DNA of 49,592 nt from a candidate division WOR-1 bacterium RIFOXYB2_FULL_37_13. Lineage in GTDB: Bacteria; Margulisbacteria; WOR-1; XYC2-FULL-46-14; XYC2-FULL-37-10. The DNA lies in the NCBI GenBank assembly GCA_001771535.1, contig MEUB01000033.1, positions 1 through 49,592 on the forward strand. The letters are read 5' to 3'. Both the position numbers and the translations under genes were made by a program. The notes under the pieces are model-generated. The model made no database searches, had not been told where the DNA came from, and worked only from the letters and a program-made list of their open reading frames with translations. Each line of letters begins with the position of its first letter. The first letter of the stretch is position 1. This document shows positions 40,211 through 49,592 of the stretch, piece after piece.

Positions 40211-42310
40211 CTAACTGTTTACTGTTGCTGTTCGGTGCCTTTCTTTCAATTCCCCCGTTTTCCCCTTATTCCACCCCTGTATTCTCGAATAATATCCTGT
40301 TATCCTTGTAATTCCTTCAATGTTTGGAGATGAACAGCTTGGACAATGGTCTTTTAGTCCCCTTGAGGTCTTTCCGCAATCGTTGCATGCCGTAAACTCC
40401 GGGGAAAAAGCAATTTGGCTGTTTTGAGTTTCGCGGAATGTTTTTACAATAAAGTTGGCAATGGACTCGGAGTTGGGTTTGCTTTCGCCAAGCCAGATAT
40501 GGGTCAGCGCCCCCGCGTCAATAAGAGGATGAAATAATCCTTCGAGCTTTACTTTGTCGATAGGATTCTGCTGTAAAGATATATTGAAATACGTAGAATT
40601 TGAATAATATATCTCCCCTGATTCCTTTAGCCCTTTTACAACCCTATGGGCCTCTTTTGGAAAATGTTTAATATCGAGTTTTGCAAACCGATATGCGGTT
40701 GATTCGGCGGGTGTCTGTTCCAAAACAAAATGCATCCCATACTCAGTTGAAAGTTCTTCGCATTTTATTTTCATGTGAGAAATTATCTTAAGTCCAAGTT
40801 TTAAGGCCTCTTTGTCTTCATGCAGTTCTTTTCCCATATGATATTCAACCATTTCGTTTAACCCTAAAATGCCGATCAGATGCGTAACTCTGCGCATCCT
40901 CAAATATTTTTCGCCGTCCCTGTTTATCGCGAGCATAGACAATGGGCCGTCAGCGCCTTCGTTTAAAAGCGATTCAATAAAGGCTCTCTTTTGTTTGTGT
41001 GCCTTTGCGCAAAGTGCTATCTGTTTACTTATAAGATCAAAAAGCGTGTCTGTATCTCCGTTTGATCTGTAAGCAATCCTTGGAAGATTGAGAGTCGTAT
41101 TTTGAATCGCAGAATACCTCATTCTCCAAGGCTCCTTCGCGTCGTCCAAATCAGACTTTTCAAGTTTAAATGAAAGTCTGCAGCATTCGGATATCTTTGC
41201 TGTTTCTCCTCTGTCAAAAACAAAATAAGTGTTCCCTTTTTCAGCCGCAACTTCGGAAATAAGTCTTAAAAAATTATCGTGCCCCTCCTCCGTGAAAAAC
41301 TTTTCTGTTATGTGTACAAGCGGTTTTGGAAAGAAAAACGGCCTCCCTGCGGCATCTCCCTCCTTATAAACTTCAAACATTGCCTTTGCGAAAATTTGCG
41401 CTTCTTTCTTGTACTCCTTGTATTTTTTCCCTGTGTATCGTCCTTGATGCCCTATAGCGTCAGTCTCTTCAAAATGTTTTGGAACTTCATAATAAATGTT
41501 TAGATCTGAAAAAAGCCCCTGTCCTCCCTGTGAAATAGCAATTGTCGCAAAATCTGTTATAAGTTTTTTTGCCAGTTTTTTTATTGCTGCAGAATCCAAG
41601 CCGACAAGATATGGGGCAATAAATAAATTAACCGCATCCCATCCGATTGCTCCGGCAAAATGGCCATGAAGAGCCACAGAAAAATGCACCAGTTGTGAAA
41701 TAAGCTCTTCCGCGTCTTCGGGTGGGGCAAAAGTAAAATTGGCATCAGGCAGGTTTAACCCAAATTTTTTTATGTATTCAACAGATTGACCCGAACAATA
41801 CGGCCTGTCGACAAAACCCAAATCGTGAAGATGGATATCTCCAATCATGTGCGCGTCTGCTACATCAGGCGAAAAAACATTGAGCAGAGCAAATTCCTTT
41901 TTGATGTTTTCTGCAAGAGTTAAATTGGTAGCTCCGGGAGAGTGGGACGTATTGGCATTTTCCTTGTTTTTGTGGAAGATTATTTTCTTTACATCATATA
42001 CTGGCGACCCCAACCTTGTGTGCTTTCTTCTGGCATCTTCAAACCCGTATTCCAGGAGCTTTATGTCTACAAGTTCGCGGATAAGAGGTGCTGTTATGTT
42101 TTTCAACTCCAAACTTTCAATCTGTTTTTCAACTTCTACCCCAATTATGTTTGCAATCGCGGCTTTTATGCCTGTTTCACGTACAAGTGCTTCAACAATC
42201 TTTTGCCTGTCCCATCCGGAAATATCATCTGCGGATGTCCTAACAAAGACCGAAAGATCGGTTGCTTCTTCTTTTGCTATAGACTGCCTTTCAAGTGTCT
42301 CTGTTGTCAT
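40211..42310 (-). CDS. nrdD: Anaerobic ribonucleoside-triphosphate reductase, second copy
   Basis: 699 residues, class III (glycyl radical) ribonucleotide reductase. N-terminal ATP-cone (about residues 15-110), then the barrel domain with PYCSGQS, ECCRLSF (thiyl cysteine region with two adjacent cysteines), and the C-terminal zinc site C642/C645/C656/C659 in CNDCGK...CPSC, followed by RITGYY with glycyl radical G672. Starts 4 bp after its paralog stops, with GGAGGTG reading into the end of the upstream gene. All catalytic elements are present, so it should be active. The activating enzyme NrdG is not in the window. Confidence 0.93.
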   Translation of the reverse strand: MTTETLERQSIAKEEATDLSVFVRTSADDISGWDRQKIVEALVRETGIKAAIANIIGVEVEKQIESLELKNITAPLIRELVDIKLLEYGFEDARRKHTRLGSPVYDVKKIIFHKNKENANTSHSPGATNLTLAENIKKEFALLNVFSPDVADAHMIGDIHLHDLGFVDRPYCSGQSVEYIKKFGLNLPDANFTFAPPEDAEELISQLVHFSVALHGHFAGAIGWDAVNLFIAPYLVGLDSAAIKKLAKKLITDFATIAISQGGQGLFSDLNIYYEVPKHFEETDAIGHQGRYTGKKYKEYKKEAQIFAKAMFEVYKEGDAAGRPFFFPKPLVHITEKFFTEEGHDNFLRLISEVAAEKGNTYFVFDRGETAKISECCRLSFKLEKSDLDDAKEPWRMRYSAIQNTTLNLPRIAYRSNGDTDTLFDLISKQIALCAKAHKQKRAFIESLLNEGADGPLSMLAINRDGEKYLRMRRVTHLIGILGLNEMVEYHMGKELHEDKEALKLGLKIISHMKIKCEELSTEYGMHFVLEQTPAESTAYRFAKLDIKHFPKEAHRVVKGLKESGEIYYSNSTYFNISLQQNPIDKVKLEGLFHPLIDAGALTHIWLGESKPNSESIANFIVKTFRETQNSQIAFSPEFTACNDCGKTSRGLKDHCPSCSSPNIEGITRITGYYSRIQGWNKGKTGELKERHRTATVNS

Positions 42311-42314
42311 TTTT

Positions 42315-44447
42315 TTACACCTCCACGCGATGACGTGCTTTTAGCTCTCCCTTTTTCCCTTTGTTCCATCCAGTGATCTTTGAGAAATATCCTGTGATTC
42401 TTGTTATTCCATCGATATTCTCCGAACTGCACGAAGGGCAATTATCCTTTAATCCGCGCGCGATTTTTCCGCAATCGTTGCATGATGTGAATTCAGGAGA
42501 AAAAGCAATCTGGCTGTTTTGAGTTTCTCGCATCGTCTTTGTTACAAAATTTGCGATACTTGCTGGATTTGGCTTGCTTTCCCCCAGCCAAACGTGGGTT
42601 AAAGCTCCCGCGTCTATTAAAGGATGGAATAAACCTTCCTGCTTTACCTTATCAACAGGATTTTGTTGATATGAAACATTAAAATATGTCGAATTGGTGT
42701 AATAAATTTCTTTTGTGCTAAAGAATCCTTTTACAACTGTACTTGCCTGATTAAAGAAATGTTCTAAATCCAGTTTAGCAAAACGATAAGCAGTTGATTC
42801 TGCCGGAGTCTGCTCCAACACAAAATGTATTCCGTATTTTTTCGACATCTCATCGCATTTTAATTTCATATAAGAAATAACTTTTAGTCCAAATTTCAAG
42901 GCTTCTTTGCTTTCATGCAATTCTTTTCCAAAATGATATTGAACCATTTCATTTAAACCCAAAATCCCCATAAGATAAGAGACCCTGAACATTCGCAGAT
43001 ATGGCTGCCCGTCTCTTTTCATTGCAAGCATGGATAACGGCCCATTTTGTCCCAGAGATAAAATTTCTTCTATGAATTTCTTTTTTTGCACATGGGCATT
43101 TGCCGCCATTTCCAGCATTTGATCAAGAAGTTCAAATAACTTTTCAGTAGATCCTTCTGCTCGGAAGGCAAGCCTTGGCAGGTTTACTGTTACGTTTTGA
43201 AGCGCGGAATATCTCATTCTCCATGGTTCTTTGGCATCGTCCAAATCCGACTGTTCCAGTTTAAATGAGAGTCTGCAGCATTCGGATATTTTTGCGGTTT
43301 CACCGCGATCGAATACAAAGTAGGTATTTCCCATCTCTGTCGCGACTTCTGATATGTGGTGTAAAAATTTTTCATGCCCTTCTGTCTTGAAAAACTTTTC
43401 CGTCATGTGAACAAGAGGTTTTGGGAAGAAAAAAGGCCTTCCAGATCCGTCTCCTTCTTTATATACATCAAAAAGTGCCCATACAAAACGCTGTGCCTCC
43501 TTTTCATACTCGCCGTATTTTTTTCCTGTATATTTTCCTCCGGGACCTATGGCTTCCACATTTTCAAAATGTTTTGGAACCTCCCAGTATAGGTTGATAT
43601 CGGAAAAGATTGCCTGTCCGCCGCGAGCAACGGCCTGTTGGCTGTATTCATATATCATCATTTGCGCGATTTGATAAATTTCTTTATCTGATCTTCCCTC
43701 CAGAAATGGGGCAAAGAAAAGGTTTACAGCATCCCATCCTATTGCTCCCGCGAAAACGCCTTGAAGAGCCGCGGAAAATTTTACCATTTGCGCAAGAAGA
43801 ACTTCCGCGTGTTTTGCGGGCTTGGCAATGCTCAACGCGTTTGGGAGATCAAGTCCGAACTTTTTGACGTATTCGACCGATTGTCCCGAGCAATAAGGCC
43901 TGTCAATAAAGCCTAAATCATGCAGATGAAGGTCTCCTCTCATGTGGGCGTCGCCTATGTCCTGTGAGAAAACATGAAGAAGCGCCAACTCTTTTTTTAT
44001 GCTTTCGGCAAGGCTGAGGTTTGTAGCTTCGGGTCCATGAGGGACGTTTGCATTTTCCTTGTTTGGAGCAAAGACTATCTGTTTCACATCATACAAAGGG
44101 AGCCCAAGCCGAGTGTGCTTGCGTCGAGCCTCCTCCAGCCCATATTCCAAAAGTTTTACATCGACAAGTTCGCGGATGAGCGGGGCTGTTATTGTTTTAA
44201 TCCGCAGGCTTGAAATTTGACGTTCAACTTCGTGTCCTATAATTTCTGCTATGTCGCGGCTTAGCTCTGTTTCCCTTATAAGCGCGTCTATTATTTTTTC
44301 CCTGTTCCATCCTACAATATCTTCCCCTGATGTCCTTACAAACAAAGCCAAATCGGTGGCATCATCATTTCTGTTCTTTTGATAATCAAGCATTTCCTCT
44401 TCTTTTTGGCTCAATTCTTTTTTTTCTGTTGTTAGTACCAGATTCAT
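42315..44447 (-). CDS. nrdD: Anaerobic ribonucleoside-triphosphate reductase, first copy
   Basis: 710 residues, closely related to the downstream copy over its whole length. ATP-cone near residues 28-125, PYCSGQS, ECCRLSF, the four-cysteine zinc site (C656, C659, C670, C673) and RITGYF with glycyl radical G686. A GGAGGG site precedes the ATG, and the gene overlaps nrdR by 4 bp. The two copies differ at many scattered positions in the ATP-cone and barrel, so the duplication is not recent. They may form homodimers with different regulation, or a heterodimer. Confidence 0.94.
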   Translation of the reverse strand: MNLVLTTEKKELSQKEEEMLDYQKNRNDDATDLALFVRTSGEDIVGWNREKIIDALIRETELSRDIAEIIGHEVERQISSLRIKTITAPLIRELVDVKLLEYGLEEARRKHTRLGLPLYDVKQIVFAPNKENANVPHGPEATNLSLAESIKKELALLHVFSQDIGDAHMRGDLHLHDLGFIDRPYCSGQSVEYVKKFGLDLPNALSIAKPAKHAEVLLAQMVKFSAALQGVFAGAIGWDAVNLFFAPFLEGRSDKEIYQIAQMMIYEYSQQAVARGGQAIFSDINLYWEVPKHFENVEAIGPGGKYTGKKYGEYEKEAQRFVWALFDVYKEGDGSGRPFFFPKPLVHMTEKFFKTEGHEKFLHHISEVATEMGNTYFVFDRGETAKISECCRLSFKLEQSDLDDAKEPWRMRYSALQNVTVNLPRLAFRAEGSTEKLFELLDQMLEMAANAHVQKKKFIEEILSLGQNGPLSMLAMKRDGQPYLRMFRVSYLMGILGLNEMVQYHFGKELHESKEALKFGLKVISYMKLKCDEMSKKYGIHFVLEQTPAESTAYRFAKLDLEHFFNQASTVVKGFFSTKEIYYTNSTYFNVSYQQNPVDKVKQEGLFHPLIDAGALTHVWLGESKPNPASIANFVTKTMRETQNSQIAFSPEFTSCNDCGKIARGLKDNCPSCSSENIDGITRITGYFSKITGWNKGKKGELKARHRVEV

Positions 44448-45090: not shown

Positions 45091-45177
45091 TTACGCTACA
45101 ATCTGACATATAGCTTGTAATATTTTTTTATTGCTCTTATTGAAATTTTTTTGATTTTATTCAGACACTTAAATAAG

Positions 45178-46083
45178 ATGCTGCACTTATTTAATAACAG
45201 AAAAATACGAAGTTTTGAAAGATATCTGTTGCCTGCGCGTTCAATAAAGGGCAGCAGGAGTGCTCAGTCAACGGATAAATTACCAAGAGAAAGAGTATTA
45301 GCTCCTTTGCCTCAAGAGAAGATTTTGGAATGGATTCAAAGTCAAAATCATGACATAAACTTAAGGACTTCAATGAGGGATTCAGAACAGGTTGCATTTG
45401 CTTTGGGTTGGACAGAGTTGAGAGGCTTTACGGATGCGGAGATTTTAACGAGTATTGGGTTTAAGCATAACAGAAGAGGTTTATATCTGCTTAATATTTC
45501 AACATTTTTTCAATATTGGGAAAGAGCAGATGCTATCCCTTTTGGAAGTAGGGAAGATTCTTTTTCTACACCCGCAGATAAATTTGTGATAGCGCTTATG
45601 CGATTGGCTCCTTTAAAATATGTTGTTGAAAAGCCGACTTATCTCCAGGTCTTGGAAATGATGTATCATGCAAAAGGAATTATAAGCTTTGTCGTATCTA
45701 ATGTTATTGAAAAAAAAGAATCAAAACTGCCAAAAAAAACAAAGCCTATATTTTTGCCTTTGTTTGTAGCGGCTCCTTTTCCTAAAGATTTTTTTGGTAT
45801 TGAATCAGACGAAAAGCCTCATCGTAAGGACTTAAATAAAAAAGGACTTGGTGAATGGTTTTTTATTCGTTATGCAATCAATTTAACATCCGCATATTAT
45901 ATTGATTTTTTTAATATAGAAGATGAATCAACAATTATAATTTCCCAACTACAACAGACAGCGCAAAGGTTGTGGCCGGATAATTATGGAACGCAAAGAA
46001 ACTATATCGCGACAGTTTTGAAAAATTTGTGCTTGACCTATGTAATCCCTAAGAAATCAGGGAAATATTGCAATTTGGGTTAA
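45178..46083 (+). CDS. Hypothetical protein, 301 residues
   Basis: No family recognised. The protein is rich in basic and aromatic residues at the N-terminus (NNRKIRSFERYLLPARSIKG), then mixed alpha/beta. There is no signal peptide or membrane helix. A stretch RLAPLKYVVEKPTYLQVLEMMYHAKG and the C-terminal helix QQTAQRLWPDNYGTQRNYIATVLKNL are the most regular parts. An in-frame TTG at 45151 would add nine residues; neither start has a good ribosome site. It is convergent with the radical SAM gene and is preceded by an operator-like palindrome, so its expression may be switched. Confidence 0.5.
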   Translation: MLHLFNNRKIRSFERYLLPARSIKGSRSAQSTDKLPRERVLAPLPQEKILEWIQSQNHDINLRTSMRDSEQVAFALGWTELRGFTDAEILTSIGFKHNRRGLYLLNISTFFQYWERADAIPFGSREDSFSTPADKFVIALMRLAPLKYVVEKPTYLQVLEMMYHAKGIISFVVSNVIEKKESKLPKKTKPIFLPLFVAAPFPKDFFGIESDEKPHRKDLNKKGLGEWFFIRYAINLTSAYYIDFFNIEDESTIIISQLQQTAQRLWPDNYGTQRNYIATVLKNLCLTYVIPKKSGKYCNLG

Positions 46084-46129: not shown

Positions 46130-49100
46130 TTACATTTGATGTTCAAAAGATATTGGATTATAAGCTGCAGGAGTAACATCTGGAGAATAGGCAGCTATTC
46201 TTGTATGAAGGGCGTTAATAAACAGGCTTTCTCCTGCTAATTGAATATATCGGTCTTTTATTTTATTCATATGAGCTATCATCTCCTCTCTTGTAAGAGG
46301 TCTATTATCCCCAGATGCTAAGAGTTGCTGTTCATATAAACTTTCAGGGGCAAAAACTCCCATGAGTGTTAAATAGCGAGGGAAAACTTTTGCCATCACT
46401 TCAGCTATTCCTTTTGCATGTTCATCAGCATATTTAATACCACCTAATCCGGGCATAACAGTCACAGAAGCAAAAATTTCAGCATTTCTTAAAAAATTTG
46501 CCGCCTCTAAAATTTCAGCTACAGTAAAACCTTTATCAACAAGACCTAAAACAGTATCGTCCCCAGCTTCACATCCCCAATAAACAAGATTTAATCCCTG
46601 ACGCTCTAAACGTCTCAAACCATCTTCCCCATGTCTTATTATTGCCTTGGTTGTGGCATAACTTTCTATTCTCCTTATATCTCCACCTTTGTATCTATTT
46701 ATGTATTCTAAAATTTCAACCAAACGATTTGTTGGCATAATAAAACCATTTCCACCACTCAAAAAAACTCTATTAAAATTATCAGCAAGATCTCTTTTCC
46801 CCATGTATTCTTGAATTAAAGCAAAATGATCTTTAAATCTGCCAAATCTAATTAAAGAAAATTCTTCTTTTTCATATAAACTACAATATGTACATTTACG
46901 CCAATCACAGCCCGTAGATATTTCAAATCTAATTACTTTTTTACCTGATGCACTCGGCGGAGCAAAAGGATAAGCAGAATAAAAATCTCTATCAGAATAA
47001 AGCAACCTAAGATTTAGTGGCAACTGCTTTCCTCTCGGATCATTTACTTGAGCTACAATAGTATCTAAAACTGATGAGCCTATAATCGAGCCTAAATTAT
47101 AAGTTGGACGTTTTCTTTTTAACGCAACAACAGGTTTTAAAAATCCATCTCTAATGCTAGCAATAAATAATTCCAAATATCCAGCTCGCACAAGTTTAAA
47201 TTCGTCACGTCTATCTAAGGGTGAATAATCATATTCCCTTGGATTATAATATCCCCATCGCAACGAAACCTCAAAATCATGGAGATTGACCTCTTTATCA
47301 ATTTGGGGCCATGTGGCTGATGAAAAATCTATTCTATGATCTCTTATCCGTCTAATTGCCAAATTGGTAGCTTTATTATCTTCTAAAAAGTACCCTTCAA
47401 AAAAATAATATCCCCCCTCATACTTTACAATATCTCCACCACTAAACCCAAAATCATCACGAATACAATCAACCCAATATTTACCACCTATTTGAACGCT
47501 TTCCAGCGGATAGACTAAATCAATAGCGGTAAAAGCAAATTCAAATAATGTTAAATCAGGATTTTCTGCAAAAGCATCTATTGCTGAATTAATAAATATT
47601 TTATATTGATCTAAGCTCACAACTGATTCTTTAAGTCTTTCTATTCTTTTAACAAGCTGTTTTCGCTGTTGTTCAAAAAAATCTTCGCTCAATGCGCCAC
47701 CTGAAGTAGCTATCGCATCTTTTATTTTTTCATCCACTTTTCTCAGAAATAGATCAATAATTCCAATCAAAACATCCCTGGTTTTATGAAATCTTTTTAT
47801 TATAAAACCAATAGAAGTTTTTCTTGAAATAGACAACTGACTTGTTAAAGTTTTTTTTAATTTAGCTTCAAATTCATCAAATAAAACATTAAAAGCATTA
47901 AAAACGACATCAACATATTCTGTATTACAAAAAAAATCTGTTCTAAACTCAACCATTTTATTAGGATCTCTAACAAGAGCCACATCCTGGTTAACAATAT
48001 GCCTAAAATCGTATGAATATCCTCTTTCAAAAATTTCACTGACACTATTCAAAACAACCGCAACAACATGTCTTGCGGCTTCTACTGGATTGGAATAACT
48101 ACTCACTAATGTTTCAAAATAAACAGGTTTATTACAAAAAACACATACTGATTGGTCTTCATTTGAGATATCAAAAAGAGGGGCAAGATAATTGGCAACT
48201 TCCTCCATGATGTCATTTAAGATTCGTGACATACTGTCTATAATATTTTCTTCTGGGATGGAAGTTCTTATTTTTAATCCTATCTTAAAACAAATCCCTT
48301 TTATTAACCATGAAAGGGCATTTATTATTATTTTTTCATAATCCAAACAAGCCCTACCCCTCGATATTAAATTAAGTATTTTATCAATTGAGCTTTCAGA
48401 ATAAGTTCCTTTCAAAAATGCCTGAAAATTGCCAAATATTCTGTTATGAGCTGACTCAAGAGCGGCTGGAGAATCACATGAGATTAACTCTCTTTCAAGG
48501 CGATGTCGATCTGCCAGTGGAAAAAGGTTGTTGGTTCTTCTTAAGACATCTGTAATTTCTGCTACTAATAAAGTGGTAACAAATCTATTAAAAACCATCT
48601 CAAGGGGCAAAGGTTCTTGCATCTGCACAGATTCTCTTGCTGAATGTAAGTCTGTAAGTTCTTTTAATCTATCAATTTTTTTGTCTGTTCGATCAACGGA
48701 ATATCCCGTCAAAGGGTTAAACCCATAATCTTTTTCAGGATTGTATTCCCCACGTTTTTTTATTATTCTTAATGTAGACCCAGTTGAGTCGTAATGTATT
48801 ACAGACTTCAGACCTCGATCATTGATTATCCTTCCCCATAATACAATTTGATATTCACTATAATTATTTACATAATTATATGAATATCCTTCAACAAAAA
48901 CTATTTGTTCACACCACAAAGACTTGTGAGAACTATCCGTAACAATATCGCCTGCACGAATACCATGAAAATGTGAGGCAACACAATCTACCTCTAAAGG
49001 TTTAACATTATCTGCAGAAATAACTCTTTTTGAAGGATATTCAAATTTATAGGTGTCACTGGAAGCAACAACAGGCAATACAGTAATAGGACGTGGAGAG

Positions 49101-49171
49101 TAAGATAGGCGCACCAATTTCTCAAAATGAGGAGGTAAAGAACGGTTTGCTATAGACAAGTTTGTTTCCAT
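46130..49171 (-). CDS. Large radical SAM protein with an internally duplicated N-terminal module
   Basis: 1013 residues. The radical SAM domain is C-terminal (about residues 740-1000): FEISTGCDWRKCTYC with C755, C760 and C763 (CX4CX2C rather than CX3CX2C; the 'C-x-W-x-K-C-T-x-C' form is known in some families), then LSGGNGF (GGE-like) and YWGCEAGDDTVLG, VTVMPGLGG. The first ~730 residues are unknown. Two segments resemble each other: residues 72-154 (GDIV ... FVEGYSY ... GEYNPEKDYGFNPL) and 578-652 (GDIV ... FFEGYFL ... GYYNPREYDYSPL). Between them is a mostly helical region with CVFC near residue 345. The reaction is unknown. The upstream partial gene on the same strand may be its partner. 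Confidence 0.72.
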   Translation of the reverse strand: METNLSIANRSLPPHFEKLVRLSYSPRPITVLPVVASSDTYKFEYPSKRVISADNVKPLEVDCVASHFHGIRAGDIVTDSSHKSLWCEQIVFVEGYSYNYVNNYSEYQIVLWGRIINDRGLKSVIHYDSTGSTLRIIKKRGEYNPEKDYGFNPLTGYSVDRTDKKIDRLKELTDLHSARESVQMQEPLPLEMVFNRFVTTLLVAEITDVLRRTNNLFPLADRHRLERELISCDSPAALESAHNRIFGNFQAFLKGTYSESSIDKILNLISRGRACLDYEKIIINALSWLIKGICFKIGLKIRTSIPEENIIDSMSRILNDIMEEVANYLAPLFDISNEDQSVCVFCNKPVYFETLVSSYSNPVEAARHVVAVVLNSVSEIFERGYSYDFRHIVNQDVALVRDPNKMVEFRTDFFCNTEYVDVVFNAFNVLFDEFEAKLKKTLTSQLSISRKTSIGFIIKRFHKTRDVLIGIIDLFLRKVDEKIKDAIATSGGALSEDFFEQQRKQLVKRIERLKESVVSLDQYKIFINSAIDAFAENPDLTLFEFAFTAIDLVYPLESVQIGGKYWVDCIRDDFGFSGGDIVKYEGGYYFFEGYFLEDNKATNLAIRRIRDHRIDFSSATWPQIDKEVNLHDFEVSLRWGYYNPREYDYSPLDRRDEFKLVRAGYLELFIASIRDGFLKPVVALKRKRPTYNLGSIIGSSVLDTIVAQVNDPRGKQLPLNLRLLYSDRDFYSAYPFAPPSASGKKVIRFEISTGCDWRKCTYCSLYEKEEFSLIRFGRFKDHFALIQEYMGKRDLADNFNRVFLSGGNGFIMPTNRLVEILEYINRYKGGDIRRIESYATTKAIIRHGEDGLRRLERQGLNLVYWGCEAGDDTVLGLVDKGFTVAEILEAANFLRNAEIFASVTVMPGLGGIKYADEHAKGIAEVMAKVFPRYLTLMGVFAPESLYEQQLLASGDNRPLTREEMIAHMNKIKDRYIQLAGESLFINALHTRIAAYSPDVTPAAYNPISFEHQM

Positions 49172-49186
49172 ATATAATTTATAAAT

Positions 49187-49592
49187 CTAAGTTAAGTCAT
49201 TTTCAATTCCAGACATAGGGACACAAACAAAAGTAGCAATAGTCCCTAAAGCATCTGAGTGTTTCATTATCTTTGAAATTAGTATCTGCCGATTGTTTGT
49301 ATCTTCCGGATAAAGATTCGAAAGTAAACAACCAATAAAAAATATTTTATCAAAAGGGTTTGCATTTGTTTGCTTCCAATCAAAAGAATTTGCTATATAA
49401 GAGGCACATTCAATAAAACAATCATCTGTTAACTTTAAAAAAGTAAAAATCCCAGCGGCAATTGATGCTTGTTCAGCCATATCTTCTTCAATAGAAAGAC
49501 GTACTTCTTGTTTTTTAGCAAACATTGCAACATAAAAGGTATCACTAGTGTCCCAACGTTGAAAGGGTAAAAACTCGATAAAGCTTGACAAT
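49187..49592 (-). CDS. Hypothetical protein, cut by the window edge
   Basis: At least 134 residues, helical, cysteine-containing (for example FIGCLLSNLYPED, CFIECASYIANSF), ending GIENDLT. The frame is open to the last base; a TTG at 49591 could be a start but the true start may lie beyond the window. It ends 15 bp before the radical SAM gene begins, so the two are probably one operon. No family is recognised and no motif suggests a function. Confidence 0.45.
   Translation of the reverse strand, partial: LSSFIEFLPFQRWDTSDTFYVAMFAKKQEVRLSIEEDMAEQASIAAGIFTFLKLTDDCFIECASYIANSFDWKQTNANPFDKIFFIGCLLSNLYPEDTNNRQILISKIMKHSDALGTIATFVCVPMSGIENDLT

Follow-up and report, generated by a model that had tools for sequence, protein, structure and literature searches.

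A radical SAM protein with a 735-residue N-terminus matching no family searched, encoded in a probably acquired gene block of a candidate division WOR-1 bacterium

The right end of the window, by which the whole 49,592-nucleotide stretch analysed here is meant (all of contig C33 of a candidate division WOR-1 bacterium), carries a gene for a radical SAM (rSAM) protein with 735 residues in front of its rSAM domain. The question is what such a protein might do, and whether it belongs to an undescribed enzyme system, for which the first-pass annotation had considered it the best candidate in the window. Table 1 summarizes the features of the locus.

Table 1. Features of the rSAM locus and its surroundings (window positions unless a contig or locus is named).
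Feature	Position	Strand	Basis or remark
Gene Z, 310 aa, convergent left neighbour, outside the block	45151..46083	+	40% identical relative in G001
33-bp direct repeat, left block edge	46037..46069	+	mate C13:1884-1916 in fmt 3' end; blastn 97%
1,013-aa radical SAM protein gene	46130..49171	-	uninterrupted ORF; Radical_SAM Pfam hit
Radical SAM domain, C-terminal, residues 736-1013	46133..46966	-	alignment with standalone family, ~30% identity; barrel model
CX4CX2C cluster-binding motif, C755/C760/C763	46883..46909	-	sequence; cysteines invariant in family alignment
Module 2, residues 551-657	47201..47521	-	internal alignment to residues 54-164
Inter-module stretch, residues 165-550	47522..48679	-	mostly helical, DSSP of AlphaFold2 model, pLDDT <50; no family match
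Module 1, residues 54-164	48680..49012	-	internal alignment to residues 551-657
Gene Y 3' part, ~300 aa when whole, IS-interrupted	49187..49541	-	ORF; frame continues in C13
Insertion-sequence (IS) copy, left end (TCACTAGTGTCCCAACGTTG...)	49542..49592	.	same end opens contig C15
Gene X, 352 aa	L013:715-1773	-	invariant CxCCF family

The C-terminal domain of the protein, which is encoded by a single 1,013-codon frame without internal stop, is a radical SAM domain; profile, alignment of relatives and structural model agree on this. Pfam Radical_SAM (PF04055) matches residues 750-916 with E=1.7e-10 and 41.7 bits against a curated cut-off of 29.5, and the cluster motif reads CDWRKCTYC (residues 755-763, C755-x4-C760-x2-C763), so the first-pass annotation was right in joining its repeated module to a CX4CX2C rSAM domain. 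An AlphaFold2 model built with a 58-row alignment gives the barrel a pLDDT of 70-97 over most of residues ~780-980. Its top matches in the PDB are rSAM enzymes with probability 1.00, the closest folds being MgmA, Elp3, viperin, MiaB and HemN, and the cluster motif and the conserved glycine-rich residues of the SAM site are intact in the predicted barrel. A near-palindrome within the coding region (window 48850-48888) is predicted to form an RNA hairpin (-14.9 kcal/mol, z = -4.8); it is A+T-rich and possibly incidental.

Relatives of this domain were found as standalone proteins. The scan of genome contigs gave 324 relatives among the pattern-matched candidates, of which 80 were kept, mostly from Gammaproteobacteria, and all 80 align to query residues ~696-1001 only. 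Except for one truncated ORF of 159 aa, these are full-length ORFs of 284-360 aa without homology to the window N-terminus. In each of the 79 full-length relatives measured the rSAM motif lies at most ~95 residues from the start, and the 735-residue extension was found in none of them. The scan, which used the conserved columns of a 2-row alignment, returned standalone relatives only, and a similar protein of ~290 aa occurs in only two genomes of the window's phylum. Members of this family, which is presumably COG1032-like, are annotated only as 'radical SAM protein' (e.g., Sulfuricurvum WP_013449951.1); two that were scanned against the NCBIfam models fell far below every cut-off, and a literature search on the CX4CX2C family found nothing useful. 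In 16-26 of the 80 loci (L031, L035 and other gammaproteobacterial ones) the family lies near genes which, read by eye, we take to encode ETF, ETF:quinone oxidoreductase and a DUF1285-like protein. Of 86 family positions that are nearly invariant, 42 are retained in the window copy, the three cysteines among them, and 44 are lost, for which reason the copy is regarded as a divergent relative rather than a member with the same function. Family FLADGDA has become FLSGGNG (residues 803-809) and RPPSEA has become APPSAS, while the columns of the C-terminal IFRS-(D/N)-HASNY are gapped or changed and that motif is lost.

The first-pass annotation described the N-terminus as unknown, and this held: searches of Pfam, NCBIfam, PHROGs and the PDB, of 74 genomes of the phylum and of phages, plasmids and viral contigs gave no relative of residues 1-735. 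Matches in phage records are confined to the rSAM part. Peptide-pattern scans, a method that detects close relatives only, gave no relative of the whole protein in the genome and viral contigs and none of the N-terminus in the viral contigs. Single-sequence AlphaFold2 folded residues 1-735 with a mean pLDDT of 32.8, and the helical region placed between the modules on first reading was recovered at low confidence. A PADLOC match to LmuB (E=0.0013, residues 245-535) was read as coiled-coil or helical similarity and rejected, and a defence-system role of the rSAM locus found no support.

Within this N-terminus the two modules are likely to share common descent by duplication, judging from their alignment, the statistics of which are modestly significant. 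The ordered pattern GDIV..F-x-EGY..G-x-YNP..Y..(N/S)PL, noticed from the start as a repeat, occurs exactly twice in the protein, starting at residues 74 and 579 (GDIV at 74 and 579, EGY at 94 and 592). The similarity extends further than had been stated: across ~105 residues the modules are identical at 32-33 positions in the same order, with V-x-PLE, VDC, W and DR-x-D as additional common motifs. With BLOSUM62, the score of 49 was reached by 13 of 600 full shuffles (about 2%) when the halves were compared unselected and by 8 of 3000 for the chosen modules. For these the fraction did not exceed 0.3%, BLOSUM45 giving 0/3000; other matrices gave 1-15% for unselected comparisons, and BLASTP returned E=0.07. 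If no duplication took place, the short motifs would be alike by chance or by an aromatic, Asn/Pro-rich composition, and both the unselected shuffles, of which 1-15% attain the score according to the matrix used, and an unrelated helical pair inside the same protein, which scores 50, fit that account. It is nevertheless doubtful in view of the ordered identities, which include VDC, GDIV, F-x-EGY, G-x-YNP and PL, and of the BLOSUM45 result on the chosen modules. The duplicated domain of the first-pass annotation can therefore be retained as likely, not proven. Other carriers of it did not turn up, as a two-module profile matched nothing besides the window protein in the genomes of the phylum; its matches in the PDB, coronavirus spike chains, were chance matches via an N-P/Y-rich stretch.

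Upstream of the rSAM gene the window runs into an IS copy, whose opposite terminus is found where C59 and C13 end. Four contigs end in such termini, namely C33, C15, C13 and C59 (window 49542-49592; L003:22-82; L012; L011). The flanks in C33 and C13 have a common 7-bp target duplication, AAAGGTA, so C13 likely continues the window on the other side of the IS; C15 was rejected as the contig past the edge, since C33 and C15 run into the same IS end. Joining of C33 and C13 at the empty site yields one open frame, gene Y, which lies 15 bp before the rSAM start on the same strand. The small co-directional gene reported upstream of the rSAM gene is thus coding and co-directional, but it is a fragment of this IS-cut gene of ~300 aa and not a small gene. 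No relative of the Y 5' part was found in the phylum. Past Y, C13 continues with X, which is co-directional with Y and the rSAM gene, and then with fmt and def. X has no match in Pfam or the PDB. Its relatives in G003, G004 and G011 are 26-32% identical and have an invariant C-x-C-C-F motif, X itself carrying the conserved CDCC, and X is a member of a real family of the window's phylum. In G003 and G011 the relatives are encoded divergently from mnmA, with iscS/iscU-like genes close by, two of them stand in tandem in G004, and in these three genomes they are never beside an rSAM gene of the window type. The names mnmA, iscS, iscU, fmt, def and uvrA are our assignments, read from translated sequences and not from family searches.

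Without the IS, the X-Y-rSAM block measures ~5.3 kb and lies between Z and fmt, with the rSAM gene last. In G001, of the same family, the order is anaerobic ribonucleotide reductases, NrdR, Z, fmt, def and uvrA, where Z abuts fmt and the block is absent. The 33-bp direct repeat has one mismatch and only two copies in the genome, both flanking the block. This repeat, unique to the block, together with the absence of the block from the syntenic G001, suggests that the block is probably an acquired cassette. Its insertion in the window lineage is the simplest reading, although it could instead have been lost in G001. The block genes have a GC content of 32-35% against a regional mean of 37%, a weak signal given that 5 of 114 windows of 3 kb are as low. 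The repeat is longer than expected of a target duplication left by transposition, and no integrase gene could be recognised in the block. A 1,018-aa frame in G054 resembles Z weakly (29% over 65 aa). Further left (window 40211-44447, minus strand), a pair of paralogous genes for anaerobic ribonucleotide reductase lies side by side next to nrdR, and G001 has the pair too.

Considering its superfamily, the protein would bind a [4Fe-4S] cluster, reductively cleave S-adenosylmethionine and abstract hydrogen from a substrate. Radical SAM enzymes often acquire new chemistry via added domains. Since neither FLADGDA nor HASNY of the family is preserved in the window copy, the substrate might be other than that of the standalone relatives, and the N-terminus, in which a helical stretch would separate two related modules, might bind or position a large substrate or a partner. 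As a whole, the locus is best explained as encoding an acquired multidomain rSAM enzyme, the product of the last gene of a three-gene block, with an altered substrate and a substrate-handling N-terminus, an explanation to which we would give an even chance. The domain architecture itself is real and restricted to the lineage, and its N-terminus matches no family searched. That this N-terminus is an undescribed substrate-handling architecture, which together with X and Y gives the rSAM domain a new and probably macromolecular substrate, is a tentative idea that may well be wrong. That the locus is an enzyme system, for which it had been named a candidate, is not supported, as no recurring gene neighbourhood of the window rSAM was found and the collections searched held the architecture in no other genome, leaving it known from one. 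The genes past the window edge provided candidate partners, Y and X, and no precursor peptide.

A decaying or selfish acquired fragment, borne by recombination, now hit by an IS and with no present function, would account for the occurrence in a single genome and the absence of the block from relatives. Because Y carries an insertion, with the target duplication intact, the block may indeed be decaying; the 1,013-codon frame without a stop and the intact rSAM residues nevertheless make a functionless fragment unlikely. An enzyme acting on tRNA, nucleotides or another translation component, in which the N-terminus would bind RNA or protein, is suggested by Elp3 and MiaB among the fold neighbours, by the two genomes in which relatives of X stand beside mnmA and iscS/iscU-like genes, and by X adjoining fmt here. 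This is quite improbable, as many other folds match equally well, the block seems to have landed beside fmt by chance, and close relatives live without it. A RiPP maturase, in which the rSAM domain modifies a nearby-encoded precursor and the N-terminus recognises its leader, would suit a large rSAM protein with an accessory N-terminus beside uncharacterised genes, and family members are weakly similar to models of RiPP rSAM C-methyltransferases, but it is disfavoured and very unlikely because no precursor ORF was seen in the intergenic gaps of the block, which leave little room for one (15 bp for Y-rSAM, 46 bp for rSAM-Z, ~90 bp for Y-X and ~130 bp for X-fmt), and SPASM/twitch, B12-binding and leader-recognition domains, of which remote versions are possible, were not found with Pfam and NCBIfam.

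For the acquired multidomain rSAM enzyme, a library-orphan N-terminus fused to a common uncharacterised barrel with changed motifs makes a new activity plausible. Attention is also drawn to a widespread rSAM family of ~300 aa, the scanned members of which lie below all NCBIfam cut-offs, and to the CDCC proteins, a conserved family without a Pfam match. Among known systems, Elp3 and MiaB have a barrel fold similar to that of the window rSAM, whereas their acetyltransferase and TRAM/UPF0004 domains were not found in the window protein with Pfam and NCBIfam. For the rSAM core, the curated models closest in sequence, as well as one of the best fold matches, come from the B12-binding rSAM class (PhpK, HpnJ, BchE, MgmA and OxsB), but the sequence matches are all far below the curated cut-offs, and residues 1-735 gave no Pfam or NCBIfam match to a cobalamin-binding Rossmann domain, a diverged form of which is possible. 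The standalone CX4CX2C rSAMs of 284-310 aa can be aligned over the whole rSAM domain with ~30% identity to the window copy, and CX4CX2C, R-x-x-x-Y, GxE(S/A)GDD and GLGG are common to both. These relatives start at the rSAM domain and comprise ~300 residues, whereas the window protein reaches 1,013 aa through its 735-residue N-terminus.
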